In this document: one piece after another, positions 45,426 through 61,281 of the stretch
How positions within the stretch are numbered: position 1 is the first letter of the stretch
Layout of the letters: each line of letters opens with the position of its first letter
Virus record (IMG/VR): IMGVR_UViG_3300030098_004783
Coordinates: 1 to 61,281 of that record
From: a virus
Direction: 5' to 3' (one strand)
DNA: 61,281 nucleotides
Program-made: the position numbers and the translations under genes
Notes under the pieces: generated by a model
Seen by the model: the letters and a program-made list of their open reading frames with translations, nothing else
Database searches by the model: none
What the model was told of the DNA's origin: nothing

Positions 45426-45445
45426 CCAACTCTGAGCTTGGTAAG

Positions 45446-45910: not shown

Positions 45911-45914
45911 AAAT

Positions 45915-46596: not shown

Positions 46597-46611
46597 GATG
46601 TTTACGGTTAA

Positions 46612-46643: not shown

Positions 46644-46673
46644 TGAACCTAACCAAAACCAAATGGAGAAAAT

Positions 46674-47987
46674 ATGGAATCAGAAAACGAAACCGATGAC
46701 ATCATTTGTGATGTCTGCCGTGACTCACCAGCTACTGCTGTGGAATGTCTCGAAGGCACAGATACTGACATATGTGACTGCTGTCTCGATGAACTACCTA
46801 CGGATGAGTGGAGTGGTGAGCTTGTCAGAGAAATCGTAGCCCACGTAGATGGCTACGGTGTAGGACGGGATACACTTGACGATGAGTGTTTCACCTGTGA
46901 TTGGAGTGGGGAGTATGGATTCAATGAGAATGCAGTTGAACTCACCTGCGGAGACATCGTTAATCGTGAGTATTACAGCGATGAGCTGTTCTACTGTCAC
47001 GATTGTGATTATCGAGGACATATCGATGATGCACAATGGATAGACCAGATTGAAGCATACGTATGTGATGACTGTTCGTGTGAACATAGGCACAGAGCTG
47101 ACCGTTGGCACAACAGATTCGCAAAGATTGTTTCCAATACGTTCAGTAAGTTCCCTGTCCGCAATTACGTGGGCATTGAGTTCGAAGCTGAAGAGGGAGA
47201 ACCTATACGTGATGTGATACCATCTGCCCTGTATAACAAAATCGCAGAGGCTAAAGACGATGGTTCTCTGAACTATGGCACGGAGTATGTGACACACCCA
47301 ATGCGTGGTGATGACATAGCTAACACGATAGATGAGATGTGCGATATGTTCGCATCAAATGGTTGGACATTAGGAACCAACGTAGGTTGGCACTTCCATT
47401 ATGATATGGACAGCTTGAGCATCAACCGTCAGAAGAACGTATGGAAGGCTATGCAGAGATTTGATAACCTAATACGTATGTCTGATGACTTCGGATATTT
47501 CAGAGATATGCAGAGGTCGTATGCCACAGGATGGACAGAACAATACGTAGCTTGGGCATCACAATGGGCGATGGATAAGAAGCGTGACTATGATTACAAC
47601 GCACATAGGAGACAGGCAACACGTGGCTCTGAGATGGGTAGATATGCGTGGCTTAATTGGTCTCCGATGGGGAACATAGATAATAAACGTGTAGAGATAC
47701 GATTGTATAGACCTATTACATACAGACGTAATTACACAGACGCTACAAGCTGGTCACGTAGTGCATACTCATCAGTAGCACAGGACTACAAACTATTCAT
47801 TCAATTTTGGAATGAGTTTATACGCAAGTCTGCGTATCGACCACGTTCGTTGAGATTCAGAGATGATGCACACGGACTGATTGATATGACAGAATTTGCA
47901 GGACAATTTTCACCAGAGGTGAAGGATTGGTTGATTACAAACCACAATACACATATAACACGACAGGAGGTGATAAACAATGTGTGA
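46674..47987 (+). CDS. Amidoligase-family protein with N-terminal zinc-binding region
   Basis: The 437-residue protein has two parts. Residues 1-140 hold CxxC-type pairs (CDVC 12-15, CDCC 34-37, CFTC 72-75, CHDC 108-111, CDDC 131-134), a multi-zinc region. Residues 160-370 match the putative amidoligase family (Amidoligase_2, glutamine-synthetase-like COOH-NH2 ligases): YVGIEFEAE (165-173), KDDGSLNYGTEYVTHPMRG (194-212), TNVGWHFHYDM (235-245) and RYAWLNWSP...RVEIRLYRPI (323-348), the E.E / D.S..G.E.V / G.H.H / RY..N....E.R set of that family. Such enzymes are predicted to form amide bonds using ATP. The next gene encodes a glutamine amidotransferase that would supply ammonia. The substrate is unknown; the zinc region may select a protein or nucleic acid target. 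It begins 30 bases after a hairpin and overlaps the next gene by eight bases. Confidence 0.75.
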   Translation: MESENETDDIICDVCRDSPATAVECLEGTDTDICDCCLDELPTDEWSGELVREIVAHVDGYGVGRDTLDDECFTCDWSGEYGFNENAVELTCGDIVNREYYSDELFYCHDCDYRGHIDDAQWIDQIEAYVCDDCSCEHRHRADRWHNRFAKIVSNTFSKFPVRNYVGIEFEAEEGEPIRDVIPSALYNKIAEAKDDGSLNYGTEYVTHPMRGDDIANTIDEMCDMFASNGWTLGTNVGWHFHYDMDSLSINRQKNVWKAMQRFDNLIRMSDDFGYFRDMQRSYATGWTEQYVAWASQWAMDKKRDYDYNAHRRQATRGSEMGRYAWLNWSPMGNIDNKRVEIRLYRPITYRRNYTDATSWSRSAYSSVAQDYKLFIQFWNEFIRKSAYRPRSLRFRDDAHGLIDMTEFAGQFSPEVKDWLITNHNTHITRQEVINNV

Positions 47988-49248
47988 GATACAATTCGTA
48001 ATGAGCGATACGTTGGGCAATGACAACGTTAATAACTTCATTGAAATGTTGAGTAAAGGTTCTAGGTCGAACGATGACGCAACAGGTATATTCAGTAGTT
48101 CATACCAATGGAAAGTTGGTAAGGCCTACGAGGATTTGAAAGATAAGAAAGATGACAGCATCAGACACGTGCTGTCCGCACTCCCAAGCAATTGGCTCGT
48201 GGGTCACAATAGACTTGCGACACAGGGTAGTGAGACTAATAACGAGAACAATCATCCGTTCTCGAATGATACTTGCACGATAGTGCATAATGGTATCATA
48301 GGTAATGACGATACGTTGAAGGCACAGTATGGCTTCGACTATAAAGCAGAGACAGATAGTGCGATAGTCCCTGCGTTAATTGACCATTACATACGTGATG
48401 GTAAGGATGAGATAGACGCTATCAAAGAAAGTGCAGAAGAACTAACAGGTTCGTATTCGATATTTGTATTTATGCACAGCACACAGAACCTATACTACCT
48501 CAAAAATAATTCGACATCATTTTATATGATGAAAACTCTCGATGCAAACGATAACGTAAGCATCTATGGTAGCACATCCAAGTCAAGCTTGGAGGATATG
48601 TCGTATATAAAAAGCGATGGACTGTTTGGTTCCGACCTATTTAAAGCACGACACATAACTACACCAGAGGGTGGTGTTATATATCACGTAGTATATAAAG
48701 GAGATAACGGAATGGATATTGTTAATGCAGGTGAATTTACACCTCAATCCTACGTATATAAAGGAGGAACTACGTATTACGGTAGGGGTGCCTACTCTTA
48801 TGGTGGTAATACATACTATGATTGGGATTCACTCGATGATACAGATTACGTAGGAGATAGCTGTTCGCTATCGAAGAATGAAACCAAACGTAAGGAACGT
48901 GCAGAATCTTCGGAAGCTATGAACGAGATACTAAAGGAGTTCGATACTAACGTAGATGATGTGTTCGAAGGAGTAGTGACTGACATAGAAAACTTCTGCG
49001 TATACGATGAGGATATAATATTTAGTGGACAATTCACGAATGATATTATGGATGCGGTATCTACGTATTCAAGTAGACATCAACAGATAGTTCTACGTGA
49101 CGTTCCTACTATGTATGGAACTTACTTGGAAAATTATTTAGATGCAACTGCGTGGATATCTACGGATGATGTAGGTAAAGGCGAGGACATTAGCAACTAT
49201 ACAGTTAAATACCAAGCACTTGTTAAGTATATAGAGGACAACCAATGA
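47980..49248 (+). CDS. Class II glutamine amidotransferase (Ntn hydrolase)
   Basis: Releases ammonia from glutamine. The protein starts MCEIQF, so Cys2 becomes the N-terminal nucleophile after Met removal. Further family marks: RSNDDATGIF (29-38), GHNRLATQG (75-83, as in GHTRWATHG), NHPF (91-94), IVHNGIIGN (101-109), ETDSAI (124-129) and GSYSIFVF (near 152). The domain covers residues 1-200; the C-terminal 220 residues (with GYYGRGAYSYGG-like Gly/Tyr stretch and FDTNVDDVFEGVVTDIENFC) are not recognised and are not the GlmS isomerase. The eight-base overlap with the amidoligase gene suggests the two work together. It ends in an ATGA overlap with the next gene. Confidence 0.82.
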   Translation: MCEIQFVMSDTLGNDNVNNFIEMLSKGSRSNDDATGIFSSSYQWKVGKAYEDLKDKKDDSIRHVLSALPSNWLVGHNRLATQGSETNNENNHPFSNDTCTIVHNGIIGNDDTLKAQYGFDYKAETDSAIVPALIDHYIRDGKDEIDAIKESAEELTGSYSIFVFMHSTQNLYYLKNNSTSFYMMKTLDANDNVSIYGSTSKSSLEDMSYIKSDGLFGSDLFKARHITTPEGGVIYHVVYKGDNGMDIVNAGEFTPQSYVYKGGTTYYGRGAYSYGGNTYYDWDSLDDTDYVGDSCSLSKNETKRKERAESSEAMNEILKEFDTNVDDVFEGVVTDIENFCVYDEDIIFSGQFTNDIMDAVSTYSSRHQQIVLRDVPTMYGTYLENYLDATAWISTDDVGKGEDISNYTVKYQALVKYIEDNQ

Positions 49249-49925
49249 AAACGTTAGCACTTAATCCTGATAAAAACGCAGACGATAACATATCAGACGC
49301 AGTCGATTTCTTTACACGACATTGTCACGGTGAGAAAGAACTTACCGGATTATTTGCATTCGAAGATAGAGACCCATACGCACTATACCATCCACGATGG
49401 AATGGTAGACCACTATTACCTGAGAAATTAGCGTCAGCTATTGATAGGTGGTGTGATAAAGGTAAAGGATGGGCGATACTACATAGCCGTTCATACCCAC
49501 GTGGAACTAATTCACGTAGAGAACGTATGCCGTTGAGGTTATCTACTTACCAATACTTCTTTCACATAGGTGGATATGGTAGCCAATCATTGTGGAATGA
49601 AGTGCAACGTTCACGTAGAGTAAAGAGGCCAACTAATATGGCGGTATATAATGCGTGGATACAATCACAAATATCAGATGATTTTCTTAACAGATGGAGA
49701 GACTATCACAACTTAAGCGATGAGGGTAATGAACGCACACGTTCATTCTGTTCATTCGTATGGGATAATGGTATGATAAAGAAATACAATATGTATGAAG
49801 ATGATTACGAGGATAATAGTCCGACACGATATAAGGTGTATAGTGTAGAGGGATACGACAATGATAACACATTGACTTATCGCCCTGCGTTTACTATGCA
49901 ACCAGAATGGGATGGTGTGCAATAA
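49245..49925 (+). CDS. Unknown protein in the amidoligase cluster (226 aa)
   Basis: ATGA overlap with the amidotransferase gene and TAATG overlap with the next. The sequence is rich in Arg, Tyr and Trp (DRWCDKGKGWAILHSRSYPR, NRWRDYHNLSDEGNERTRSF). The middle segment WAILHSRSYPRGTNSR recalls the GHNRLAT block of class II amidotransferases, so it may be a degenerate relative, but the N-terminal Cys is absent. Its coupling makes it a likely third component of the module. Confidence 0.55.
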   Translation: MKTLALNPDKNADDNISDAVDFFTRHCHGEKELTGLFAFEDRDPYALYHPRWNGRPLLPEKLASAIDRWCDKGKGWAILHSRSYPRGTNSRRERMPLRLSTYQYFFHIGGYGSQSLWNEVQRSRRVKRPTNMAVYNAWIQSQISDDFLNRWRDYHNLSDEGNERTRSFCSFVWDNGMIKKYNMYEDDYEDNSPTRYKVYSVEGYDNDNTLTYRPAFTMQPEWDGVQ

Positions 49926-50461
49926 TGGGTGCGTATCCATTTAGTCAGGCAGTCAAATGGCCTGAACATATGTGCGAACATTGTAGTAATATAATCGGCC
50001 CTGTCGATGTGTTCGGTAATAATCCAGACGATAATAAATGCGAGGGTGCGGGTATGAAACTGAAACCACAATGGGGTGGTAAACTCGAAGGACAGGCAGA
50101 TGATGACCCTACGCAACACGCATTCATAGATATATCATATGGTATACGTGACCATACAGACTCTGAGAAATTTAGAAAGTTCGTTATGGAAACTAAACGT
50201 ATGGCTGTTCCTATGTGTGAACTTGGTAAACAATTACCAAAGATACACGTGCAAAGACAGTCAGACTGTGAGTATCCAGAGATTAGAAAGAAGATGGATA
50301 TGGATGGAGTCCCACGTATGGTGGACATAGAAGGACATAAATTCTGCGGACATTGTCACGTCAAGCAGACGTATCAGGGCTACGCAGATTACTCGTGGCG
50401 TTCGACAGCAGAGACCTGCACGAACCCTGATTGTATAATGAACGGAGGTAAAGAACAATGA
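49925..50461 (+). CDS. Zinc-binding protein in the amidoligase cluster (178 aa)
   Basis: The start at 49925 is chosen for the TAATG overlap with the previous stop. It has two Cys clusters: MCEHCSN near residue 17, and FCGHCHVK ... TCTNPDC near the C-terminus, each able to bind zinc. The middle contains RKFVMETKRMAVPMCELGKQ and a basic region. No enzyme motif is seen. ATGA overlap with the next gene. Confidence 0.55.
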   Translation: MGAYPFSQAVKWPEHMCEHCSNIIGPVDVFGNNPDDNKCEGAGMKLKPQWGGKLEGQADDDPTQHAFIDISYGIRDHTDSEKFRKFVMETKRMAVPMCELGKQLPKIHVQRQSDCEYPEIRKKMDMDGVPRMVDIEGHKFCGHCHVKQTYQGYADYSWRSTAETCTNPDCIMNGGKEQ

Positions 50462-50601
50462 GTAAACACACAGATGAACTGCTTGAAGCAGTTCAGGAGA
50501 TATCCGCAATCATTTACTATCAGTCGAATTTAAAAGAGCAGGATAGATGGTTAGCAGATATAATGGAGAAAGGTATATGGCTCCCAGAGGATGACGACTG
50601 A
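50458..50601 (+). CDS. Small helical protein (47 aa)
   Basis: Starts in an ATGA overlap and ends in TGATG with the next gene. Mostly helical and acidic (TDELLEAVQEISAIIYYQSN, WLADIMEKGIWLPEDDD). Coupling is the main evidence for translation. Function unknown. Confidence 0.5.
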   Translation: MSKHTDELLEAVQEISAIIYYQSNLKEQDRWLADIMEKGIWLPEDDD

Positions 50602-50735
50602 TGGAAGATATATGCGATTTCATTGACGGTAGTGGCATAGTAGAATGTCCAGATTGCGGTGAGGTAGTAGAGACCGTAGACGAAGATAAGTGTCCTTACT
50701 GTCACAATGGAAAATATATGTATGGAGATATATAA
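50601..50735 (+). CDS. Zinc-ribbon microprotein (44 aa)
   Basis: Shares a base with the previous stop (TGATG). ECPDCGEVVE and DKCPYCHNG form two CxxC knuckles 12 residues apart, a rubredoxin-like zinc ribbon. The next gene begins on the base after its stop. Likely an interaction or nucleic-acid-binding module. Confidence 0.6.
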   Translation: MEDICDFIDGSGIVECPDCGEVVETVDEDKCPYCHNGKYMYGDI

Positions 50736-51083
50736 ATGAAACAAAACAAAATATTAACAGAGTTTCTCGATATGATAGACGAAGCCCATAAGATAGAGGC
50801 ATCTAACATAGACATAAAGAAGATACTCTCACCTGCACAGTTCAGGCAATTTACAGAAATGGAAGAGGTTATTAACAATATGTTTTCAGCTAATAACCTA
50901 CACGAAGGCATACGTAAGACAATAGACGGTGCCAAGCTAAACAATACGCAACAGATAAACGTATTGATTATGCTAAAAATATTTGAAACATTCATCGGTG
51001 CGATGAAGGAGGCTGGTATACAACCCGATACAAGCAGTAGCAATTATGATTTGCCTACTGACTTCGGTGACTTGTATGCCTAA
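50736..51083 (+). CDS. Helical protein of unknown function (115 aa)
   Basis: Begins directly after the zinc-ribbon stop, with AUGGAGAUAU-type purines just upstream. Almost wholly helical (ILTEFLDMIDEAHKIEASNI, TEMEEVINNMFSANNLHEGI, NVLIMLKIFETFIGAMKEAG). No motif is recognised. A long hairpin follows its stop. Confidence 0.58.
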   Translation: MKQNKILTEFLDMIDEAHKIEASNIDIKKILSPAQFRQFTEMEEVINNMFSANNLHEGIRKTIDGAKLNNTQQINVLIMLKIFETFIGAMKEAGIQPDTSSSNYDLPTDFGDLYA

Positions 51084-51084
51084 A

Positions 51085-51130
51085 ACACACATAGTAGGTA
51101 AGTTAGTAAACGTACTTACCTACTCTGTGT
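51085..51130 (+). terminator. Long hairpin after the helical protein gene
   Basis: AGTAGGTAAG (51093-51102) and CTTACCTACT (51115-51124) form a perfect 10-bp stem with a 12-base loop; flanking ACACA and TGTGT can extend it. It starts two bases after a stop codon. There is no T-tract, so it may be an RNA-processing or attenuation element rather than a classic terminator. Confidence 0.5.
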
Positions 51131-51161
51131 GGTGATACAAAAAATTAAAGGAGAATTAAAA

Positions 51162-51494
51162 ATGACAAACAACAGATTTAGTAGAATGTCCTCACGTAGT
51201 GGGGGTAATGATAGCTCCGCCAAATCAGGCGGGAACGTTAAGTATAACGTAATTAAGAGTGAACGTGTGGATTGGGAACCAAATAACTTTTTGGAAATAT
51301 CCCACAAGTCATACGATGCTAAGGGTGAGAACTCTGGTAGTGGTGAGTTTTACTCACTATCACGTGGCTACTACGCAACCGGCAACGGTGACGTAGATGA
51401 AGGCACACCTATATACCAGAAGAACCTTACGCTTCCAGCTGACGATAAGTTCCTCGATAGCTTCATCGGTGCATTAGATAAGATATTTTCTTAG
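51162..51494 (+). CDS. Possible single-strand DNA-binding-like protein (110 aa)
   Basis: The start at 51162 follows AAAGGAG at good spacing; the frame extends further left without such a site. A flexible Ser/Gly/Asn-rich N-terminus (SRMSSRSGGNDSSAKSGG) precedes a beta domain (NFLEISHKSYDAKGE, GEFYSLSRGYYATGNG, IYQKNLTLPADDKFLDSFIG). The order of strands then a final helix recalls PC4-like single-strand DNA-binding domains, but similarity is weak. It is preceded by a hairpin and probably marks a new translation unit. Confidence 0.45.
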   Translation: MTNNRFSRMSSRSGGNDSSAKSGGNVKYNVIKSERVDWEPNNFLEISHKSYDAKGENSGSGEFYSLSRGYYATGNGDVDEGTPIYQKNLTLPADDKFLDSFIGALDKIFS

Positions 51495-51502
51495 GTGCAT
51501 AG

Positions 51503-51667
51503 ATGAGAAGCAAAGATGTTCGCACAGGTATGGTTCACGAGATGCATAGTATAACTACTGCATATGAGAACCTACGCACAGTAATGAGTAAGCCTTCACC
51601 TATGAGTAGGTGGAGTGAGGTTAAGGATGCTCTTGAGCGTCTATCATCTGCTATTTACGGACAGTGA
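51503..51667 (+). CDS. Small protein of unknown function (54 aa)
   Basis: An ORF between two supported genes with the same codon style (CGC, CGT, ACG). Mostly helical (VRTGMVHEMHSITTAYENLR, SRWSEVKDALERLSSAIYGQ). GGTG before the ATG is a weak site. It contains six methionines in 54 residues. Function unknown. Confidence 0.45.
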   Translation: MRSKDVRTGMVHEMHSITTAYENLRTVMSKPSPMSRWSEVKDALERLSSAIYGQ

Positions 51668-51739
51668 ATACGTAGATAAATACACCCTTGCAATACACGT
51701 AGGATATTGTATCTTAGTATCAATAGTGGTGTTATCAAT

Positions 51740-51967
51740 ATGAGATATCATATAGCTTATTCAAATCAGATACGTTTGAAGGATGGCCGAGTACTCACGT
51801 ACGATGACGTTGAACTTCACGAAGAGACACACGAGTACGACGTAGGCACGAGAGAGAAACACAATACACCACGTAAGGGTGATGAGCTGGAGTATCTCGA
51901 AGATTTTATGTCAGGCAACTTTGTTGTCATCCTCGAGAAAGGAGACGTAGAACAATTAAGTGATTAA
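51740..51967 (+). CDS. Small island protein (75 aa)
   Basis: The ATG at 51740 is preferred over an upstream TTG at 51707. The sequence is beta-rich and charged (IAYSNQIRLKDGRVLTYDDV, ELHEETHEYDVGTREKHNTP) with a C-terminal GNFVVILEKGDVEQLSD. The stop overlaps the next GTG start. Not recognised. The 70 bases before it hold no clear promoter. Confidence 0.5.
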   Translation: MRYHIAYSNQIRLKDGRVLTYDDVELHEETHEYDVGTREKHNTPRKGDELEYLEDFMSGNFVVILEKGDVEQLSD

Positions 51968-52607
51968 GGTGAACCGATTACATATACGATACGAGCCGAG
52001 AGTAGGCACTAAGTCTGGAGGGGGATACAATAACACTTCCTCTGGACTGCACGAAGTGAGGCACGTAGATGATGTAGTTGAGTTTGTATTTCTTAATGAA
52101 ATATACGTGAGGTTCGGTAGCGTTGATTCACTCAACGTCTACCCTCACCCACCTTATGATGATGACCTACGCAACCACGATGTATCTGAATTACAGATGG
52201 TAGCGGACAATAGGTTCGCACGTGTCATCGACAATCTTTTTAGAAAAGAATGTATTGATGACAACAACATACACGAGTATGTATTTAGAATTTACAGACG
52301 ACCTACGTATGGTCGAACTGATATACCTGCGTATTGGGATATAACTATACGTGAGCATAATATCGATTTGCCACGTTACGCACATAGCCCTGCTCCTACG
52401 GAGATGTACGTAGGTGAGTTCAAGGATACGTGGACTGACGAACAACGTGAGGTTGTGCGTGAGTTCCGTGCGTACGCTGTGAGTTTCCCGCGTTCGCTGA
52501 CTGAGAATCAATTCATCGAGTTCTATATGCAACGGATAAAAGATAGCCCTTCCCGCGCCGATGCTCGTAGAATATGGAAACATAGGGCAGAAATGGGATT
52601 AGTATAA
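51960..52607 (+). CDS. Last island protein, unknown function (215 aa)
   Basis: Starts with GTG inside the end of the previous gene (AAGTGATTAAGG). Residues 1-75 look like a beta domain (VRHVDDVVEFVFLNEIYVRF, GSVDSLNVYPHPPYDDDL); the rest includes VFRIYRRPTYGRTDIPAYWD and a helical C-terminus with SRADARRIWKHRAEMG. CGT-rich codon use ends with this gene; the next gene returns to A/T-rich codons. Confidence 0.52.
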   Translation: MIKVNRLHIRYEPRVGTKSGGGYNNTSSGLHEVRHVDDVVEFVFLNEIYVRFGSVDSLNVYPHPPYDDDLRNHDVSELQMVADNRFARVIDNLFRKECIDDNNIHEYVFRIYRRPTYGRTDIPAYWDITIREHNIDLPRYAHSPAPTEMYVGEFKDTWTDEQREVVREFRAYAVSFPRSLTENQFIEFYMQRIKDSPSRADARRIWKHRAEMGLV

Positions 52608-52609
52608 CA

Positions 52610-53053
52610 ATGGTAAATACAAAAAAAGATGTAAAGTTTGGCCTTAAAAAAGAAGAGGAAGCTATTAAATGCTTCTCTGACAATGCTCCCAAAGGTAAAT
52701 GGAATGAATTTAAAAAGATGAATGAGTTTAATCACTTCGATTATTGTGCTCATTCTGCTGACCGTAAGCGTTCTGCGTTCGTAGAGATTAAATCTCGACG
52801 TAATGCTAAGGACGCGTATGAGGACACTATGGTGCCCTCTGTAAAGATTGAGAAGGCTTTAAACCTGATTCGTTTAGGACATAAAGTTTATTTTGTATTC
52901 AATTTTACTGACGGTATATTCTTTATTGACCTCGAAAAGGCCACCGTACGCTTTGGAAAAAGCGCACGTACAGATAGAGGTGCATTGGAATTAGGACACT
53001 ACGCATTTATACGCGTAGATTTATTAACAAAAATAGGAGAAAAAAATGAGTAA
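52610..53053 (+). CDS. PD-(D/E)XK nuclease-like protein (147 aa)
   Basis: First gene of the replication block. HFDYCAHSADRKRSAFVEIK gives Asp44 and Glu59-x-Lys61, the PD-(D/E)XK core (D then E-x-K after about 15 residues), with an N-terminal Glu-rich helix (KKEEEAIKCF) that may add a metal ligand. The later segment NLIRLGHKVYFVFNFTDGIF fits the following strand. Such small enzymes are often replication- or repair-linked endonucleases. It overlaps the next gene by eight bases. Confidence 0.65.
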   Translation: MVNTKKDVKFGLKKEEEAIKCFSDNAPKGKWNEFKKMNEFNHFDYCAHSADRKRSAFVEIKSRRNAKDAYEDTMVPSVKIEKALNLIRLGHKVYFVFNFTDGIFFIDLEKATVRFGKSARTDRGALELGHYAFIRVDLLTKIGEKNE

Positions 53054-53438
53054 TGTAACAGCAAGAAAATATAAAGAGTTAGAAAGCCGAATCGAAACAA
53101 TCGAAAAGTGGCTAGATGAAAAGACCGACGTCTTAACGCAACTTGGTATGTTAGAAAACTACAGCTTCCTGATAAAAGCAGTTAGAGAATACGTTGAAAG
53201 ACAAGAACAAATGGGACAACAAATGCAACATATGCAAGGACAGTTCCAGACTAACATTGCTTCTGTAGAAGAGTTTATGAAAGACAACAAACTCGAAAAG
53301 AAATGGGAAAAATTCTTAGATAAGAAACAAAAAGAAGCTGAAGAAGAAATGAAAAAGCAACAAGCTATGGCGGAAGGTCCAGATATAAAAAGCGCAAGTG
53401 AAATTATAGCAGAACAGCGGGGAATGACTAAGGAGTAG
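53046..53438 (+). CDS. Coiled-coil protein of unknown function (130 aa)
   Basis: Long heptad-type helices (KYKELESRIETIEKWLDEKT; then MGQQMQHMQGQFQTNIASVE; then KKWEKFLDKKQKEAEEEMKK) with a polar tail ending EIIAEQRGMTKE. Located between the nuclease and the AAA+ ATPase genes, so possibly a replisome accessory or loader. AAAATAGGAGAAAAAA precedes the ATG. Confidence 0.58.
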   Translation: MSNVTARKYKELESRIETIEKWLDEKTDVLTQLGMLENYSFLIKAVREYVERQEQMGQQMQHMQGQFQTNIASVEEFMKDNKLEKKWEKFLDKKQKEAEEEMKKQQAMAEGPDIKSASEIIAEQRGMTKE

Positions 53439-53441
53439 ATT

Positions 53442-53537
53442 ATGTGGCAAATCTCTGATATAGGTAGCTGTATAGAATGTACAGAATACACAGCTATAGA
53501 TGAATACAATACTTGTGAAATATGTAGTATATTATGA
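53442..53537 (+). CDS. Zinc-ribbon microprotein (31 aa)
   Basis: Follows AAGGAG; encodes CIECTEY and CEICSIL, two CxxC knuckles 12 residues apart. The final TGA overlaps the ATG of the AAA+ gene (ATGA). Very short, yet with both Cys pairs and coupled translation. Confidence 0.55.
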   Translation: MWQISDIGSCIECTEYTAIDEYNTCEICSIL

Positions 53538-54883
53538 TTCAAAAACGAAAGAGTAATCTCAATGACTTACACCGATACTTCGAAAGTTGTTTTGTGTTAG
53601 GTAAAAGAGACCCTATATTAGAAAACCACGAAACTCGTATACTCGCCTTATTATTATGGGCGATTGCTGGTAAATCAGTATGTATTAGAGGTGAGTCTGG
53701 CAGTGCTAAAACTAAAATATTAAACGCAGTAACTGCATTGATATATGGTGACGAAGGACTCGCGGGACGCAATCCCAGTGTTTTATGGTTGAATTCATCT
53801 TCAGCCAAAGGACATCTTACTGAGGATAGTGCTCACGTTATAACACAATCTAAGCGTTGTGTTATTCCTGAGCTACAAAATATATTGACATCTCAAAATC
53901 TAGAAGCTATGATTAAGCTTTGGATGGAAGACCGTCCGTATATATACAGTAAGAACGAAATGGGTAGACGTACTGTCAGGATAATACTTGACCCTAAACC
54001 AATATTGACGAACCTTGCCGATGGAAACGAAAGTTTACCACAGCTCCCTGTTGAAATGAGACGTAGAGTAATAAGTTTGCCTACGTTCTCTAGTAAGGAG
54101 TTAAACGAAAAAGTTCACCATCTAAAGGCAGTAAGTCGTATGTTACCAGACGATAAGCTAGTGAAATTATCACGTATAGAAACCAGTGGCTTAAAAAATC
54201 AAATAAAAGAAGCTATGGGATTAGATAAACGTGTTATAAATCCAGGAGCAGACGTCATACGTACGACTATACCAGCAATATATACAATGTCAAACACATT
54301 CATAGATTATTACTTTGATGTTATAGAAGCAGTTACTAAGTTTCACCATAGAGAAAGAGCACAGGATTTGGATTATATTTATTCGACTCCTGCGGACAAT
54401 TTCATTGGTTTCTTATTGGCCGGTAGTATCTTCAGAGATATGTCAATAGGAATCAATCCGATTGGGAAAGAAATTATAGATTTCGTACCAAAAGCGGAAG
54501 TGTGGGGAGATTTAGTAACAGAAAGCGAGTCAGATGCAGTTCATATAGACGAAATCACTGACCACCTTTCAACAAAAGGAATAAACCGAACTAAGAAAAT
54601 GATTGAATATACAATGGAACGTTTAGTTGATACTAATTTTGTAAGGAGATTAAATAAAACAAACAAGTATTATAGAACGCAGGACTTTGATTTTAGTAGG
54701 TCAGTAGATTGGAAGGGTTTAGTAGATGCTTGTATAACGAATATGGAGAGTAATTCACCACATATTGCAGAAGAATATAAGAAGGATGATTTACATATGT
54801 ATACAGACCCATTTACAGGCGAACATAAGAATATACCTATGACATTACAAGTATATGGAGGACATATAGATGAAGGAGTATGA
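53534..54883 (+). CDS. AAA+ ATPase with C-terminal winged helix (replicative helicase or loader candidate)
   Basis: Walker A IRGESGSAKTKIL (residues 51-63). The usual acidic Walker B is not obvious: the best candidate is CVIPELQNI (109-117), giving only Pro-Glu in place of Asp-Glu. Arginine-rich segments RTVRII and PVEMRRRVISLP could hold a sensor or finger Arg. Residues about 330-400 form a winged helix (HIDEITDHLSTKGINRTKKM, ERLVDTNFVRRLNKTNKYYR). MCM helicases combine AAA+ and a C-terminal winged helix, and no other helicase is seen, so this may unwind viral DNA; an MCM N-terminal domain is absent. Alternative: a helicase loader or packaging-type ATPase. Located upstream of nuclease and polymerase genes. 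Confidence 0.6.
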   Translation: MIQKRKSNLNDLHRYFESCFVLGKRDPILENHETRILALLLWAIAGKSVCIRGESGSAKTKILNAVTALIYGDEGLAGRNPSVLWLNSSSAKGHLTEDSAHVITQSKRCVIPELQNILTSQNLEAMIKLWMEDRPYIYSKNEMGRRTVRIILDPKPILTNLADGNESLPQLPVEMRRRVISLPTFSSKELNEKVHHLKAVSRMLPDDKLVKLSRIETSGLKNQIKEAMGLDKRVINPGADVIRTTIPAIYTMSNTFIDYYFDVIEAVTKFHHRERAQDLDYIYSTPADNFIGFLLAGSIFRDMSIGINPIGKEIIDFVPKAEVWGDLVTESESDAVHIDEITDHLSTKGINRTKKMIEYTMERLVDTNFVRRLNKTNKYYRTQDFDFSRSVDWKGLVDACITNMESNSPHIAEEYKKDDLHMYTDPFTGEHKNIPMTLQVYGGHIDEGV

Positions 54884-55004
54884 TGGTAGATGCCAATACT
54901 GTTTAGATTGGCCACAAGAATGCGATTGTAGACCAAACCTAATACAAGGGGGACTATTTTATAAGAATAGTTACTGGCCTATAAGGGAGATAGACCCACG
55001 ATGA
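54870..55004 (+). CDS. Small Cys-pair protein (44 aa)
   Basis: The ATG lies 14 bases inside the end of the AAA+ gene; its TGA overlaps the next ATG. It contains RCQYCLDWPQECDC, a CxxC...CxC arrangement, and an aromatic C-terminus (FYKNSYWPIREIDPR). Coupling to the next gene supports it. Possibly zinc-binding. Confidence 0.48.
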   Translation: MKEYDGRCQYCLDWPQECDCRPNLIQGGLFYKNSYWPIREIDPR

Positions 55005-55234
55005 TAACATACTGCAAAGGATACAAGCATCCAGACGATATAAAGGTATGTATAAATGACCACGTTATAACATTTAAAGAAGTAGCAGAAGTGATTATAC
55101 AACTGATAAAAAATGAAGACAATATATATCCGAAACCCAGATTTAGAGGAGGAGATATGTTAATTGATTTTTTAAATGAATGTATGGAAATGAGAGATGT
55201 TCCTGATGAATTATTAAGGAAGTATAAATTATGA
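55001..55234 (+). CDS. Small acidic helical protein (77 aa)
   Basis: ATGA overlap on both sides. The helical middle (FKEVAEVIIQLIKNEDNIYP) and acidic C-terminal helix (DFLNECMEMRDVPDELLRKY) suggest a compact domain. Not recognised. Confidence 0.55.
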   Translation: MITYCKGYKHPDDIKVCINDHVITFKEVAEVIIQLIKNEDNIYPKPRFRGGDMLIDFLNECMEMRDVPDELLRKYKL

Positions 55235-55326
55235 GTGATATCATACCATTAGAAATTCCTTTAAATAGTCAGATACGAGTATATATACTATGTGGCATAG
55301 TTAATATAATATGGAGGGTAATATGA
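55231..55326 (+). CDS. Hydrophobic microprotein (31 aa)
   Basis: Starts in an ATGA overlap and ends in one. About 20 residues are hydrophobic (RVYILCGIVNIIWRVI), possibly a membrane segment or leader-like peptide. Coupling is the only positive evidence beyond openness. Confidence 0.42.
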   Translation: MSDIIPLEIPLNSQIRVYILCGIVNIIWRVI

Positions 55327-55436
55327 ATTGTACCTTATGTAAATGGAAACTATCACCACAGTATGTTAGATACCGAGATGTCAATGGTAATCCCTATTGT
55401 AGGGAATGTTATATACAGATAGGAGGAATACTGTGA
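55323..55436 (+). CDS. Zinc-ribbon microprotein (37 aa)
   Basis: ATGA overlap with the hydrophobic ORF and GTGA overlap with the next gene. MNCTLCKW and YCRECY form two CxxC knuckles 20 residues apart. It also carries GGAGG for the following GTG start near its 3' end. Confidence 0.55.
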   Translation: MNCTLCKWKLSPQYVRYRDVNGNPYCRECYIQIGGIL

Positions 55437-55606
55437 TAATAATAGAAGATTTGATATGGCACCTTGAATCTTTAAATGAAGATTTAGAAGATAAAGGTCT
55501 AGAAGTTACTATTGACTTCTTAAGATATATGAGAAGAAACATAGCAGGTAGAGGAACTTTATCAGGTTTTCTATCAGCAGATGAGTATAGGGAGATAAAA
55601 ATATGA
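55433..55606 (+). CDS. Small protein, unknown function (57 aa)
   Basis: The start is the GTG at 55433 (GTGA overlap, AGGAGG six bases upstream) rather than the upstream ATG at 55406, which overlaps the zinc-ribbon gene. Helical (IEDLIWHLESLNEDLEDKGL, FLRYMRRNIAGRGTLSGFLS). The pattern xWHLEsLNEDleDKGLEVti looks like a regulator or adaptor, but no family is named. ATGA overlap with the isoprenoid synthase-like gene. Confidence 0.55.
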   Translation: MIIIEDLIWHLESLNEDLEDKGLEVTIDFLRYMRRNIAGRGTLSGFLSADEYREIKI

Positions 55607-56208
55607 AAGAGATAATGGAAAAGTACAGCACGACATTCTTTGAATGTGTACAAGAATGGCCCAAAGAAATTAGAGAAGATATATATAAACTATATGCTTA
55701 TCTGAGGGTCATAGACGAAATGGTAGAAGGTGATGCTGATTGGAACGACTTTAAAAAATGGAGAAAGATAATAGAACAATTCTACGAAGTGTGTGATAGA
55801 CACGAGTTCGAGGGACAGTGGCTTATAGATTTTCACCAAGCTATGCTGACTGATTTAAAAACTAAAGAACACACAACTACATCTATGATAGAATATTGTA
55901 AAGGGTCGGGTGAATCGGTTGGACTAATGGTTTCAAGAATACTAGGATGTTCACCAGCTGGTGATGAATACGCTAGAGCATTAGGTAGAGCATACCAAAT
56001 AATAAATTTCGTGAGAGATTACGACGACGATGTATCTAAAGGTTATCACTATATTGGTGAAGACAAAAACTTCTACATTCGTATGTTTATTAACGAGCTA
56101 ACGTTTGCTTCTACAGGTTTACAGTTTATACCTAAACACTTACGTGGACCAATAGTCGAGGCGAACAAAAAATATCTACAGGTGGCAGATGATAATAAAG
56201 GGTTTTAG
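55603..56208 (+). CDS. Squalene/phytoene-synthase-like protein (head-to-head prenyl transferase family)
   Basis: Family members join two C15 or C20 prenyl diphosphates head to head (squalene, phytoene) at a membrane. Visible: KLYAYLRVIDEMVEGD (residues 29-44) corresponds to the YAF.R.iDDivD motif with first acidic cluster D38...E42/D44; SMIEYCKGSGESVGLMVSRI (94-113) to the Y....AG.VG.M region; YARALGRAYQIINFVRDYDD (123-142) followed by DVSKGYHYI to the LG.A.Q..NilRD...D...GR.Y motif with the second acidic cluster D139/D141-D143. At 201 aa it is about 80 residues shorter than usual (roughly 280-350), mainly at the C-terminus. The catalytic residues seem kept, so activity is plausible but unproven. 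Substrate and product cannot be read. It is coupled to its neighbours in a replication operon with no other lipid gene. An altered host lipid or pigment route, or a changed function, are both possible. Confidence 0.75.
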   Translation: MKEIMEKYSTTFFECVQEWPKEIREDIYKLYAYLRVIDEMVEGDADWNDFKKWRKIIEQFYEVCDRHEFEGQWLIDFHQAMLTDLKTKEHTTTSMIEYCKGSGESVGLMVSRILGCSPAGDEYARALGRAYQIINFVRDYDDDVSKGYHYIGEDKNFYIRMFINELTFASTGLQFIPKHLRGPIVEANKKYLQVADDNKGF

Positions 56209-56518
56209 AGTAAATGAACCACGCAAACCAGCTGAGATATATGTCTGCAACTGTGTACACGGACATTACAATTGTACGTGCGATGGAAAAGGAGGAAAGA
56301 GAATGAACGATTTTGAAAAGTTTAAAGCAATATTAGAAATAATGGAATTTCATTTAAATGAAGAACGATTAGGAGAAACTATAATCAGTAAATGGGTAGA
56401 TGAATTAAATGCTAGTTTACAAATGTATCACGATATGGCAAATATAAATGCTGGTAACGTGATAGGTAAAACTAAAATTCAAGACGACCCATATTACGGT
56501 AGAGAAGGACCTAAATGA
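56189..56518 (+). CDS. Small protein with Cys/His cluster (up to 109 aa)
   Basis: The longest start (ATG 56189, after GGTGG) gives an N-terminal YVCNCVHGHYNCTCDGKGGK cluster that could bind zinc, followed by a helical part (NDFEKFKAILEIMEFHLNEE). An internal ATG at 56303 has a very strong AAGGAGG site and would give only the 71-residue helical part; in that case a 30-codon ORF at 56214-56306, coupled by ATGA, could fill the gap. The Cys/His spacing favours the long form. Confidence 0.5.
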   Translation: MIIKGFRVNEPRKPAEIYVCNCVHGHYNCTCDGKGGKRMNDFEKFKAILEIMEFHLNEERLGETIISKWVDELNASLQMYHDMANINAGNVIGKTKIQDDPYYGREGPK

Positions 56519-56598
56519 TGTATTTTAATGAAGCCGAATGGATTATCATCCTATCAGTAGGAATGGCAATCCTTCTCGCGTGGGCGACATTACTATGA
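56515..56598 (+). CDS. Single-span membrane microprotein (27 aa)
   Basis: ATGA overlaps on both sides. MMYFNEAEW followed by IIILSVGMAILLAWATLL: nearly the whole chain is one hydrophobic helix. It may anchor or modulate a membrane complex. Coupling supports translation. Confidence 0.5.
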   Translation: MMYFNEAEWIIILSVGMAILLAWATLL

Positions 56599-56741
56599 CT
56601 TGGTATCCAGAAGGCTCTACGCTATGTCCATACTGTTATGCAGTGTGCACTTTAGTGTTTAAGAGTATAGATAAAAGTATATACGAATGTTTAAAATGCA
56701 AAAGAGAAACAATAGTTAGTCACGAGGAGGTTGATTGGTAA
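56595..56741 (+). CDS. Zinc-ribbon microprotein (48 aa)
   Basis: The start at 56595 is fixed by ATGA overlap with the membrane microprotein. TLCPYCYAVC and YECLKCKRE form two CxxC knuckles 18 residues apart. The stop overlaps the ATG of the Cas4-like gene (TAATG), and its last codons carry GAGGAGG for that gene. Confidence 0.6.
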   Translation: MTWYPEGSTLCPYCYAVCTLVFKSIDKSIYECLKCKRETIVSHEEVDW

Positions 56742-57622
56742 TGAAAATAGAAGAATTTGATAAAATAAAAGAACTCTACGATGTGAGTATTATGGAATTA
56801 TCTAAAGAGGATAATGAATCTCTCTTTAAATATCTCGATGAACCTTCACAATGGAAGAGTAATAGAAAGAGGCGTACATTTTACGCTTCTGATGCAACAC
56901 GTTGTGAACGTCAGTTGTTTTATTCGGTATCTGGAAAGCCAGAAACGAATCCATCAATTGGACCGAAGCAATTAAAGATATTCGCATTGGGAGATGCTAT
57001 ACACGAAGGTATATCAGATAGATATAGACAAGTGGATGGATGGAAATTCTACGAAGAAGCTCCCGGTGAGATACATATACCAAAGAGAGATGACCACGAA
57101 GGTGATTTCTTACTACACTATAGAGTGGATGGTATATTAAAAAGAAAGTTTGGTGAAGAAAAACTACTTGGTATAGATACCGATAGTATGATTACTGAAT
57201 TTAAAAGTAGTGCTGACTTCCCATATACAACAGGAAAGAACAAAAAAGGTGATATATACTGGTTCGGAGCCAAAGATGTGCCTAAGTACGACCACTTTGC
57301 ACAGCTCCAATTAGGTATGTACGGCGAAAGTGTTAAATATGGAGTATTGCATTACTATAATAAGAACAACAGCGAAGAGGCGGTACACGTCCTCAAGCTG
57401 AATGAAACGTTCGTCCACGGACTTATTGAAAGGATGTGGGATATTATGGACAGGATAGCTCGAGGAGAGTTACCCGAACGTCCATATGAAGCCTATCCAA
57501 ATAAAGGTAAGACGGCTTTACAGAAGACTAAGAAGATGGGAGATACCATATTCAAGTCGGATTGGCACTGTCTTTACTGTAATTATTCGGATATGTGTTG
57601 GGGATTGAACGGAGCGGAGTAG
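56741..57622 (+). CDS. Cas4/RecB-family PD-(D/E)XK nuclease with Cys cluster
   Basis: The start at 56741 (TAATG overlap, GAGGAGG upstream) gives 293 aa. Core residues: His88 (GDAIHEG), Asp130 (HYRVDGIL), Glu153-x-Lys155 (ITEFKSS), and Q..Y in HFAQLQLGMY (188-194). Four cysteines, Cys55 (RCERQLFY) and Cys277/280/286 (HCLYCNYSDMC), match the iron-sulfur cluster of Cas4 and AddB-type nucleases. Such proteins process DNA ends during replication and recombination. No CRISPR array or cas1/2 is present, so a replication role next to the polymerase is more likely than adaptation. Four bases separate it from the polymerase gene. Confidence 0.85.
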   Translation: MKIEEFDKIKELYDVSIMELSKEDNESLFKYLDEPSQWKSNRKRRTFYASDATRCERQLFYSVSGKPETNPSIGPKQLKIFALGDAIHEGISDRYRQVDGWKFYEEAPGEIHIPKRDDHEGDFLLHYRVDGILKRKFGEEKLLGIDTDSMITEFKSSADFPYTTGKNKKGDIYWFGAKDVPKYDHFAQLQLGMYGESVKYGVLHYYNKNNSEEAVHVLKLNETFVHGLIERMWDIMDRIARGELPERPYEAYPNKGKTALQKTKKMGDTIFKSDWHCLYCNYSDMCWGLNGAE

Positions 57623-57625
57623 GAA

Positions 57626-59878
57626 ATGCGAACAAAAGTATTCTTGTTAAATGTAGATTATTTTACTGACCCAGTGTCAGATGAGCCCATACTTAGATTG
57701 TATGGTAAAACTGAACACGGCGAAACTAAAGTATTCTTTCAAGAAGGCTTTCGGCCGTATTTCTACTTAGCACGCCCTTCTCCACACGACCGTCGTTTAC
57801 TTACGATGGCTGGTGCAGAAATAGGAGAGAACGTAGAATTAGAACACTATCAAGAAAAGTATGATTGTGTTCGAGTATACTTGAGGCACCCTAAACATAT
57901 GCCTCGTCTTAGAGAGAAGTTGATAAACAGAGGAAGAACAGTTTTTAGTGCAGATATACTGTATCAGCTTAGATATCTTTATGACAAGGATGTAGGACCA
58001 TTTGTAGAAGTCGAACACGATAAGTATAAGAACGTATTAGATATCGAGAGATGTGAATCATTCGATGTTAATCTAGACGTATTAACTTTTGATATTGAAT
58101 GTAGTCTGCGTACTAAAGATATGTACTGCATAGCCGCGCAATTAAACGACAATGCTGGCGTAGTATTTACTAACGCTAACGGCGAAGCTAGAATGATAGA
58201 GGATTTCGTCGAATACATACAAGCAGTAGACCCCGATATAATAACCGGTTACAATAGTAATGGGTTTGATATTCCAGTAATAATGAGAAAAGCGAAATCT
58301 TTAAATGTAGATTTCGGTATTGGAAGAGAAGGGGACGAACCTTGGATGCGTGAAGATAACAAGCGAAGAATTAAATCTTGGTTCGTATCAGGAAGAATAT
58401 TCGTTGACACTTGGCAACAAGTTAAACAGGAACTCAAGCCTATTCAGGAATCACTTGGGTTCGTGGGTGAACTTCTGGGAGTCGGGTCTAAAGACAATGT
58501 TGATGCATCTCGCATAGAAGAAGAATGGAAAAACAGACGTCTTTCTGTAATTAAATATTGCAAGAAGGATGTCAAAGTTACCTATGACGTTTTTATGCAC
58601 GATAAGATAGCATCTATTTCTAAAGCTATGGCTTTGAGCATTGCGAGTGACCTACCCCTAGAACATTCGTTTGCCCCCGTTACTTCTCGTATCGTCGATT
58701 CCCTACTCATCAGACGTTTCGATAAGAAAGGTTTTGCTGTTCCTCAGAATACTTGGAACAACAAAGCTAAGAAAATAAAAGGAGCGACCGTCTTTGAGGT
58801 TTTCGAACCCGGTATTTATCACAATGTGGGTATATTTGATTTTAAATCTATGTATCCAAGTGTTATGATAAAGAACAATATTTGTCCAACAACATTTACA
58901 AAAACGGAAACCAATGATAGCGTTCGCTCCCCCCTCGGGGTTTATTTTATGTTGGACAAAGAGTCAATCGTTCCTAAGATTCTTAAGAGTCTTTGGGAAT
59001 GGAGAGATGAAACTAAACTCAAGATAGAAAAGAATGGCGATTACTTTGATAGACTACAATATAGTATCAAGGTTCTTATGAATTCTTTTTATGGAGTTAT
59101 GGCTAGTGATTTCTATAGATTTACTAACCCGTCGATAGGTGGTAGTATTACTGCCTTTGCTAGACTAGGCATACAAAATGTAAACGACGAGTTGGCCGCC
59201 CGGGATTACACAGTCATATATGGTGATACAGACAGTGTTTTCGTACAACTTAAGGATGAAGACCCACACGTATTAGCCAAAGAACTATCGGCTCGTGGAT
59301 TAGAAATGGAACTAGAAAAAATTCTAAGTACATTTTTTACACACGGAGCTAAAAAACGATACGCTGCTATGGTAGAATGGCCGAAAGAAGAATTCTACGT
59401 TAAAGGTTATGAGTTAAAAAGAGGAGATTCCTTTAAGATACAGAGAGAAGTATTAGAACAATCTCTGCGTCTTATATTAAAAGATAAACCAGATGATGCT
59501 CTTAAGTTAGTAACTGAAGCAGTAAGAAAAATAAAGAACGAGGAAATTGAATTAGAAGATTTAATAGTAACCAAGAGTGTTAAATCTCCAAGCGAATATG
59601 TAAACCCTGATTCAAATGCAGGGGTGCAGGCGGCCGCTAAACTTCAAGCCCGAGGATATCCTTGGTTGCCAGGCACGAAGATAAGTTGGGTTGTATCTAA
59701 CTCTAAGCAGACACCAATGGAAGTAGAACCTTACATAGAAACCACAGATATGAAAGTAAAATATGATAGGGACTATTACGCTGACCGTTTGGTTAGAACT
59801 ATGTCAGATATAGCTGGCGTCTTTGACTGGGATGATATGGGATTAAGGAGTGGAACTAAACAATTAAAATTGTTCTAA
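57626..59878 (+). CDS. polB: Family B DNA polymerase
   Basis: Replicates the viral genome. The 3'-5' exonuclease is complete: DIE (156-158), YNSNGFD (209-215) and YCKKD (311-315). Polymerase motifs: A, DFKSMYPSV (405-413); B, KVLMNSFYG (482-490); C, YGDTDS (532-537). The Met in SMYPS replaces the usual Leu. There is no TPR2 insertion of protein-primed enzymes, so it should use primers from the viral primase. The last five residues, QLKLF, look like a clamp-binding peptide, implying use of a PCNA not encoded in the window. Length 750 aa is typical. Confidence 0.96.
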   Translation: MRTKVFLLNVDYFTDPVSDEPILRLYGKTEHGETKVFFQEGFRPYFYLARPSPHDRRLLTMAGAEIGENVELEHYQEKYDCVRVYLRHPKHMPRLREKLINRGRTVFSADILYQLRYLYDKDVGPFVEVEHDKYKNVLDIERCESFDVNLDVLTFDIECSLRTKDMYCIAAQLNDNAGVVFTNANGEARMIEDFVEYIQAVDPDIITGYNSNGFDIPVIMRKAKSLNVDFGIGREGDEPWMREDNKRRIKSWFVSGRIFVDTWQQVKQELKPIQESLGFVGELLGVGSKDNVDASRIEEEWKNRRLSVIKYCKKDVKVTYDVFMHDKIASISKAMALSIASDLPLEHSFAPVTSRIVDSLLIRRFDKKGFAVPQNTWNNKAKKIKGATVFEVFEPGIYHNVGIFDFKSMYPSVMIKNNICPTTFTKTETNDSVRSPLGVYFMLDKESIVPKILKSLWEWRDETKLKIEKNGDYFDRLQYSIKVLMNSFYGVMASDFYRFTNPSIGGSITAFARLGIQNVNDELAARDYTVIYGDTDSVFVQLKDEDPHVLAKELSARGLEMELEKILSTFFTHGAKKRYAAMVEWPKEEFYVKGYELKRGDSFKIQREVLEQSLRLILKDKPDDALKLVTEAVRKIKNEEIELEDLIVTKSVKSPSEYVNPDSNAGVQAAAKLQARGYPWLPGTKISWVVSNSKQTPMEVEPYIETTDMKVKYDRDYYADRLVRTMSDIAGVFDWDDMGLRSGTKQLKLF

Positions 59879-59894
59879 ATATAGAAGGTGCTAT

Positions 59895-60320
59895 ATGAGA
59901 AAGAAAAAACCAAGAGCCCCACCAAAAAATCGTACACGTTACGAAGGTGAGCTCGTTAAAATAGTAGGGACTAAACGTCCCGATTGCTATGTCTCGCCAT
60001 CTGGTAATACACAGGGTTGGGATGTATTTATAGTACATAAATTTGGAAAGAAATTCATACCAATTGAGGTGAAGACTTCAAGCACCACATCTAATATTAA
60101 CTTAGCATATAATCCAAGAGTTAAGAAACAATATGAAAAATATGACGGTATATGGAGACGACATAAAATAGTTACTTGGTATGCGTTTAGAAAAATAACG
60201 CGTGGACCAACAAGAAAAGAAAGAAAGTGGCGTTTTATACCTATATCAAATATAAATCAAATGGTATTGTCTTACGATGATGGATTGACACTAAAAGAAT
60301 TTACGGAGGTAATTTTATAA
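59895..60320 (+). CDS. Holliday junction resolvase-like nuclease (Hjc-like)
   Basis: A 141-residue basic protein. RYEGELVKIVG (Glu17/Glu19), GWDVFIVHKF (Asp43) and FIPIEVKTSS (Glu58-x-Lys60) follow the archaeal Hjc order E ... GxD ... ExK. Archaeal Hjc is a dimer of about 130-residue chains that cuts four-way junctions. Located after the polymerase; it would resolve recombination or replication branches before packaging. AGAAGGTGCT lies upstream. The C-terminal half is more diverged. Confidence 0.72.
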   Translation: MRKKKPRAPPKNRTRYEGELVKIVGTKRPDCYVSPSGNTQGWDVFIVHKFGKKFIPIEVKTSSTTSNINLAYNPRVKKQYEKYDGIWRRHKIVTWYAFRKITRGPTRKERKWRFIPISNINQMVLSYDDGLTLKEFTEVIL

Positions 60321-60628
60321 TGTATAATAGATGTTATTTTTCAAAGGGTAACTTTGAAACGATGAGAGAAAAGCTAGAAGAATATGTCTCGCGACATAAA
60401 GTAGTTAGCAGAGAAGATGTTATTGATAATGTTTTCTTTGTTAATAAGCGAGGCATCAAGATGACTATGAATAATAGACAGTTGGGTTTCATAGTGAGAT
60501 ATAGTGAAAGGCAAGGCGGTGTTACTTCATTTGTTCATAGAAGAAATAAAGAACACCATTATTATCTAACAACTGTAGATAATATGAAACAATTTGTAGG
60601 AGATGATTGGATTGGAAGAAGAAAATGA
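60320..60628 (+). CDS. Small protein with possible winged-helix region (102 aa)
   Basis: Follows ACGGAGG and overlaps the resolvase gene by one base. MREKLEEYVSRHKVVSREDV suggests a helical start, then NNRQLGFIVRYSERQGGVTS and HHYYLTTVDNMKQFVG; the order helix-helix-helix-wing resembles winged-helix DNA-binding domains (a 'Y...R.GGV' turn). Evidence is weak beyond this. Confidence 0.52.
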   Translation: MYNRCYFSKGNFETMREKLEEYVSRHKVVSREDVIDNVFFVNKRGIKMTMNNRQLGFIVRYSERQGGVTSFVHRRNKEHHYYLTTVDNMKQFVGDDWIGRRK

Positions 60629-60629
60629 A

Positions 60630-60887
60630 ATGACTGGTGTTACACCAGATATGTTAGCAAACCATACAAATATGCAGGGAGATGTATCAGACCAAAAGAA
60701 ACATTTCGCTGAAATATCATTTGATGGTTTTAGAATCTGTCTAAGCACATCCGAGGAAATGCCATTAATAGATTTCAATGATGAACTATTAAGGTTTTGG
60801 GCTCGGTTAGATGAGTTTATGATGGAAAAGCAAAATGAAAGAAGAAAGACCTCGCGAAAGAAGGGGCAACAGAACCATTACGGTTAG
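60630..60887 (+). CDS. Small protein of unknown function (85 aa)
   Basis: The start at 60630 avoids overlap with the previous gene; ATG 60603 would add nine acidic residues but has GGAG too close. It contains KKHFAEISFDGFRICLSTSE and a helical, basic C-terminus (DELLRFWARLDEFMMEKQNE, RRKTSRKKGQQ). No family is recognised. Confidence 0.5.
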   Translation: MTGVTPDMLANHTNMQGDVSDQKKHFAEISFDGFRICLSTSEEMPLIDFNDELLRFWARLDEFMMEKQNERRKTSRKKGQQNHYG

Positions 60888-60895
60888 GAGAAAAT

Positions 60896-61276
60896 ATGAG
60901 AAGAGACGAAGATTATTTACAAGATTTAATTGAATCAATGTTTGGACTAAATAATATTATGTACAATAGTGTACCTAAATATAAACCTAGGAAAGACGCG
61001 GCTAATAGAAATGTCGAAGTTGATTCGACTGGCGACGCTGTTAATATAACGATGGATTTGCCAGGTGTAGAGCTAGCAGATATCAACTTAGAAGTTGATG
61101 AATTTAATGTAGTAATAACCGCTAAGAACGGTATAAGAAACTACAAGTTTAATAGGACATTTAAGTTTTCTTTAGATGCGAACAAAGCTAAAGCAACATT
61201 TAAGAATGGAGTATTAAACGTATCAGTGGAGAAGGTTGCCAAACCTGATATGAAAAAGGTTACAATAGAAGGCTGA
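60896..61276 (+). CDS. Small heat-shock protein (Hsp20/alpha-crystallin)
   Basis: A 126-residue chaperone. The alpha-crystallin domain runs from about residue 40: VEVDSTGDAVNITMDLPGVE, then LADINLEVDEFNVVITAKNG, and ends with the signature AKATFKNGVLNVSVEK (A.FKNGVL.V..PK type), followed by a short C-terminal tail. TTAGGAG precedes the ATG. Holds unfolded proteins without ATP; in a virus it may support assembly or protect replication proteins. Hsp20 genes occur in several large marine phages. Confidence 0.9.
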   Translation: MRRDEDYLQDLIESMFGLNNIMYNSVPKYKPRKDAANRNVEVDSTGDAVNITMDLPGVELADINLEVDEFNVVITAKNGIRNYKFNRTFKFSLDANKAKATFKNGVLNVSVEKVAKPDMKKVTIEG

Positions 61277-61281
61277 TACAA

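Follow-up and report, generated by a model that had tools for sequence, protein, structure and literature searches.

Why does a tailed virus carry a gene of the squalene/phytoene-synthase (SQS/PSY) superfamily among its replication genes, and what would the encoded enzyme do during infection? The question arises from IMGVR_UViG_3300030098_004783, a 61,281-bp virus record in IMG/VR that was analysed over its full length (hereafter the window). A sequence-only reading had placed here a 201-aa SQS-like ORF with an ATG start on the + strand, tightly coupled to replication genes, and both the ORF (55603-56208) and the coupling were confirmed: the SQS gene overlaps both adjoining ORFs, the stop of a 57-aa ORF overlapping its start as ATGA, and is located between the genes for an AAA ATPase and for a Cas4-like nuclease and a family B DNA polymerase (PolB). 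The features of the locus are as follows.

53534..54883, + strand: AAA ATPase-like gene, upstream of the SQS gene (phrog_12057, E 1e-11; Pfam AAA matches weak)
55034..56383, + strand: divergent segment with the 57-aa ORF and the SQS gene (windowed alignment against L015; protein identities)
55433..55606, + strand: novel 57-aa ORF adjoining the SQS gene (GTG start, upstream AGGAGG)
55603..56208, + strand: compact SQS/PSY-superfamily gene, 201 aa (ATG start; PF00494, E 2.3e-24)
55705..55728, + strand: first acidic motif, R35-xx-D38-E39-x-x-E42 (R35 and D38 unchanged across the 25 viral and 58 cellular sequences)
55894..55923, + strand: segment Y98-C-K100-G-S-G-E104-S-V-G107 (Y98, G101, E104 and G107 invariant)
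56005..56031, + strand: second acidic motif, N135-F-V-R138-D139-Y-D-D-D143 (N135, R138, D139 and D143 likewise unchanged across both sets)
56044..56046, + strand: residue 148, Tyr in the window versus the GRxY arginine in 58/58 cellular sequences
56189..56518, + strand: 109-aa ORF downstream of the SQS gene (shares 20 nt with its end)
56735..57622, + strand: Cas4-like PD-(D/E)XK nuclease (phrog_1990, E 2e-16)
57626..59878, + strand: family B DNA polymerase (PF00136, E 3e-47)

Judged by its sequence, the 201-aa product of the window gene belongs to the SQS_PSY superfamily. The profile PF00494 (cut-off 26 bits) matched residues 6-154 (profile positions 2-175 of 263) with 87 bits and E 2.3e-24; 20/20 other viral records recovered in a peptide scan also passed this cut-off, and a phmmer search against the PDB retrieved phytoene and dehydrosqualene synthases of solved structure (best E 2e-8). 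The AlphaFold2 model, for which 21 viral orthologues served as input, was all helical (pLDDT 90.2, pTM 0.88). Its best Foldseek match in the PDB was the dehydrosqualene synthase CrtM of S. aureus (TMq 0.79-0.82), the other matches being CrtM-like proteins, 5iys (a phytoene/dehydrosqualene synthase, TMq 0.81), HpnC (0.76) and YisP (0.65), followed by the SQS-fold carbazole prenyltransferase CqsB4 (E 1.4e-3, TMq 0.57-0.65). The model thus carries the predicted helical isoprenoid-synthase fold, and no unrelated helical family matched it better; that both metal sites would lie on one cavity is implied only by this global fold match. The proposal of a virus-encoded squalene/phytoene-synthase-like enzyme is therefore borne out by profile, predicted fold, motifs and conservation, while profile, predicted fold, conservation and dN/dS (see below) rule out a chance ORF or ORF artefact.

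The active site was compared across 25 viral sequences and 58 cellular relatives. Both acidic motifs and the intervening conserved segment of head-to-head synthases are present, as had been read from the sequence. Y31, R35, D38, W73, F77, M81, D84, Y98, G101, E104, G107, Q132, N135, R138, D139, D143 and Y150 do not vary in either set; Y191 is likewise fixed in the viral sequences and occurs in 97% of the cellular ones. Aligned to CrtM by phmmer and numbered by hand (Y98 aligning with CrtM Y129), the viral proteins keep the equivalents of Y41, R45, D48, Y129, Q165, N168, R171, D172 and D176, which we take to be the established catalytic residues of that enzyme. Residue 42 is Asp in 58/58 cellular and Glu in 23/25 viral sequences, and the first motif reads DNxVD in L089 and L090. 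Position 148 is occupied by Tyr or Phe in all 25 viral sequences, never by the GRxY arginine, and position 100, two residues past the catalytic Tyr, by Lys or Arg in all 25, versus Tyr in 97% of the cellular relatives. Hence a basic residue has gone at 148 and one has been gained at 100 in the viral clade; from the alignment, these may be unrelated changes inherited within that one clade.

The viral proteins are also approximately 100 aa shorter than the cellular ones (~195-205 versus ~280-300 aa) and, to our knowledge, few natural members of the superfamily may be smaller. The short C-terminus remarked on earlier is real in that the tail is missing, but it is not the whole story, as three deletions can be counted: one of ~15-20 residues follows motif I, another of ~30-40 follows motif II, and the third removes the C-terminal tail. 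This tail, with its conserved K-x-K-P, is absent in 23/25 viral sequences including the window's clade. The deepest viral sequences, L089 and L090 (220-225 aa), retain a K-x-P remnant, and the tail was therefore apparently lost inside the viral clade.

The SQS gene was detected in at least 27 viral records (i.e. the window and 26 that bear an orthologue), comprising 20 further IMG/VR contigs from the peptide scan (59-97% identity) and six from a profile search of PolB relatives, one of which is a fragment at a contig end. Comparison of the PolBs separated two lineages, a window type and an L018 type, whose polymerases are only ~22-24% identical. All five members of the window-type lineage (the window, L001, L002, L010 and L015) carry the SQS gene, as do ~22 of the ~45 contigs of the L018-type lineage, many of which are fragmentary. 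It is absent at the RecU-like site in L047, L050 and L061, where the gene that usually follows SQS directly follows the RecU-like gene, and is present in the record of L060. Nei-Gojobori pairwise dN/dS between close viral pairs was 0.01-0.12, a sign of strong constraint on the protein, and no stop codons occurred inside the viral SQS matches, which rules out a pseudogene or decaying host gene; the gene is thus not decaying and, with the metal site kept, loss of activity by decay, which had been raised from the short C-terminus, is unlikely.

No significant match to the SQS protein was found in INPHARED, no family in PHROG, and no match reaching E 1e-3 in a Foldseek search of BFVD. In the literature covered, which was incomplete, no tailed virus was reported with an SQS_PSY gene, and the family is absent from the main text of Xu et al. 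on magroviruses. The earlier statement that no standard role is known for this family in tailed viruses agrees with these searches (no prior report, no PHROG or INPHARED relative and no close BFVD match), and the viral SQS branch of this known enzyme superfamily is apparently undescribed so far.

The gene occupies at least three genomic settings: between a RecU gene and a zinc-ribbon gene; between AAA and Cas4/PolB genes, as in the window; and near MazG/c10 (L008, L011, L012 and L088). Between the window and L015, neighbouring proteins are mostly 80-90% identical, whereas the SQS proteins share just 60%, and nucleotide identity is ~34-66% across 55034-56383 versus ~71-94% in the flanks. SQS has apparently been swapped in place in the window's lineage, although the alignment would also fit faster local divergence. 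It usually behaves as a single-gene cassette that is gained, lost or swapped. Several other features of the L018-type contigs were recorded. A VWA-domain protein and a CbbQ/CobS-like AAA protein (L003:5120-7267 and L004:1152-2336) are conserved upstream in these viruses. A small zinc-ribbon-like protein whose C-terminal stretch is hydrophobic (L003:10584-10838 and orthologues) adjoins SQS in many contigs, and its gene occurs also in contigs without SQS. The 31-kb contig IMGVR_UViG_3300037195_000659 (L071 and L075) apparently holds two L018-type PolB genes in opposite orientation, which appears to be a duplication or an assembly chimera.

Eight viruses, the window among them, were found to have the 57-aa ORF, on differing backbones and always adjoining SQS or within ~0.6 kb of it; the order of the two is reversed in L008, and a MazG-cluster gene lies between them in L012. 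It has a conserved core, RRNIAGRGT, matched no known family and is predicted to form a helical hairpin (AF2 pLDDT 84). An IMG/VR scan seeded on this ORF alone, pattern-based so that divergent copies may escape it, returned SQS-bearing contigs only, and the ORF was absent from the SQS-less loci examined. Most SQS-bearing viruses are without it, so it is not generally required. A two-component enzyme, in which a pared-down subunit of SQS fold, its basic residue relocated, would work with the 57-aa helical partner on a product or prenylated target novel among SQS/PSY proteins, is a speculative and improbable reading.

In the tree, a quick ML reconstruction with long branches in which the exact position of the viral clade is unsure, 26 viral sequences formed one side of a branch (SH-aLRT 97). 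Their sister, and nearest cellular clade, consists of squalene-synthase-like proteins of archaea and candidate-phylum bacteria with 25-37% identity to the viral ones (38% over one 97-aa stretch). In a genome scan with viral motifs, members of this clade came from Thermoplasmatota, Thermoproteota, candidate-phylum bacteria and one MAG labelled Deltaproteobacteria; a two-row alignment (an L089 stretch and a hybrid row) served in a second scan solely to place peptide patterns. Many other Thermoplasmatota genomes contained distant paralogues only. Recent capture from a host was unsupported, as cellular relatives reached at most ~40% identity in the sets scanned and the viral sequences make up a single, deep clade in this long-branched tree.

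The window begins (1-1583) inside a class II ribonucleotide reductase (RNR) gene that is missing ~98 N-terminal residues, and ends (60896-61281) just past an HSP20 gene, which precedes the RNR in L002; the record therefore probably represents a circular or permuted genome that lacks only ~0.3 kb to close. At 46674-49248, genes of amidoligase-like and of class II glutamine-amidotransferase-like type follow one another, and at 43800-45300 there is a stretch of ~49% GC (versus ~38%) in which the only ORFs are short, unsupported and in frames that conflict. Terminator-like hairpins over 42000-61281 number 25, double the 11.6 of shuffled sequence, with no excess of sigma-70-like promoters.

The host was approached via PolB, TerL, capsid-gene candidates, RNR, MAG searches, Shine-Dalgarno statistics and sigma-70 scans. 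The window PolB most resembled a DNA polymerase II from a Salmonella record and the PolBs of haloviruses, the best matches of the L018-lineage TerL were halovirus HGTV-1 and a Thermus phage, and the nearest RNRs were of Roseobacter/Rhizobium (alphaproteobacterial) phages. Searches with the L018-lineage PolB came back empty from 319 Thermoplasmatota genomes, all of one order, and from 250 genomes of an ammonia-oxidiser family. Shine-Dalgarno signals were strong (GGAG in 31% of upstream regions versus 6% in shuffles) and sigma-70-like promoters showed no excess (58 found, 60 expected). An archaeal host, as implied in the earlier remarks on archaeal lipids, is plausible and seems fairly probable, mainly from the SQS clade; the PolB, TerL and RNR matches are split between archaeal and bacterial records and phages. 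PF00494 was found in 0/200 genomes of one ammonia-oxidiser family (recognised via amoA); should the host prove to be an ammonia-oxidising archaeon, the viral gene would bring in a family that those genomes lack.

Prenyl diphosphates are present in essentially every cell. We favour, at a probability of roughly 0.55, an active compact SQS/PSY-superfamily enzyme whose two acidic motifs would hold a host prenyl diphosphate (FPP or GGPP) and Mg2+ between them, so that the diphosphate is ionised. Two molecules would most likely be joined head to head, giving a presqualene-type diphosphate or a squalene/phytoene-type hydrocarbon. Prenyl diphosphate would thereby be diverted from host isoprenoid lipids and/or the membrane loaded with apolar isoprenoid during infection, diversion and a change of the membrane having been suggested earlier for this gene; here catalysis, substrate, product, benefit and host are all inferred. 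Turnover of prenyl diphosphate is argued from the kept ionisation-site residues and purifying selection, and conservation of SQS across two lineages with such distant PolBs also counts in favour of the head-to-head reading, as does HpnD as the nearest NCBIfam model; against it count the lost GRxY arginine and C-terminal tail, the missed equivalog cut-offs and the want of a companion isoprenoid gene. Neither a PF01593 oxidoreductase (CrtI/HpnE-type) nor a PF00348 prenyl synthase was found in 29 viral records, many fragmentary, and the virus would therefore depend on its host beyond the first product. Apolar polyisoprenoids are proposed as archaeal membrane regulators (PMC6770870, PMC7689154), and a benefit to the virus might come by this route.

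Other activities of the same fold have to be weighed against this. The SQS-like YisP of B. subtilis is an FPP phosphatase and not a squalene synthase (PMC8144471), and a viral enzyme of this kind would ionise FPP or GGPP and set the alcohol free, so that the host pool is depleted or the alcohol itself acts on the membrane. The shared fold (TMq 0.65) and the loss of the C-terminal part and the GRxY arginine around a kept metal site are consistent with such a phosphatase, but the match is weaker than that to CrtM (0.82) and the viruses retain the entire intervening conserved segment, so that we regard it as unlikely. Reuse of the fold to prenylate an acceptor that is not a terpenoid, be it a small molecule, a protein or a nucleic acid, is less probable still: the CqsB4 match, the basic residue at position 100 instead of 148 and the location among replication genes point in this direction, whereas the fold match is weaker than to head-to-head enzymes, no acceptor was identified and the gene neighbourhood differs between lineages.

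A catalytically dead protein that binds prenyl diphosphate or acts as a regulator would account for the ~100 missing residues and for the loss of an arginine conserved in 58/58 cellular relatives. We hold this to be improbable, as metal- and ionisation-site residues that are invariant (or Asp to Glu) across ~60%-identical viruses would be unusual in a dead enzyme. The light-related pigment suggested earlier, with the virus supplying the first step towards a carotenoid, is very improbable. Phytoene synthases belong to the superfamily and CrtB models do match, but weakly, at 26-33 bits against cut-offs of 480-550; the 29 records, many of them fragments, contained no desaturase-type or prenyl-synthase gene, and the closest relatives are other proteins than the distant paralogues found in many Thermoplasmatota genomes.

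A head-to-head enzyme acting on host FPP or GGPP thus remains our preferred reading. A viral SQS gene that is conserved and yet gained, lost and swapped suggests that marine tailed viruses tamper with host isoprenoid lipids, a form of takeover for which no earlier description was found. Such viral rewriting of isoprenoid pools would be directly testable with one purified protein and FPP or GGPP, and the small SQS would be a useful minimal scaffold of the superfamily.

Among known systems, the archaeal and candidate-phylum 'GSAEVIGLMM' squalene-synthase-like proteins (Thermoplasmatota, Thermoproteota, Saccharibacteria) have the same motif order as the viral proteins and 25-37% identity over most of their length. 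These cellular proteins have ~280-300 aa, the GRxY Arg, DxxVD and a C-terminal K-x-K-P, whereas the viral ones have ~195-205 aa (220-225 in L089/L090), Tyr148, Lys/Arg100, mostly Glu42 and no tail except for the L089/L090 remnant. HpnD (presqualene diphosphate synthase) is the best NCBIfam model (E 5e-16), yet at 58.6 bits against a cut-off of 278.6, and HpnC (squalene synthase) follows (E 6e-13), yet at 49.0 bits against 250.45; no HpnE-type oxidoreductase partner was found in the 29 viral records. The CrtB phytoene synthase differs likewise, the viral protein falling below its equivalog cut-off and the 29 records, many fragmentary, showing no companion desaturase gene, and YisP has the same predicted fold at a weaker match. 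CrtM, the best fold match, shares both metal motifs and the Y129/Q165/N168/R171 equivalents with the viral protein, but only 18-19% identity in the fold alignment, and its R181 is replaced by Tyr in a viral enzyme that lacks the tail.
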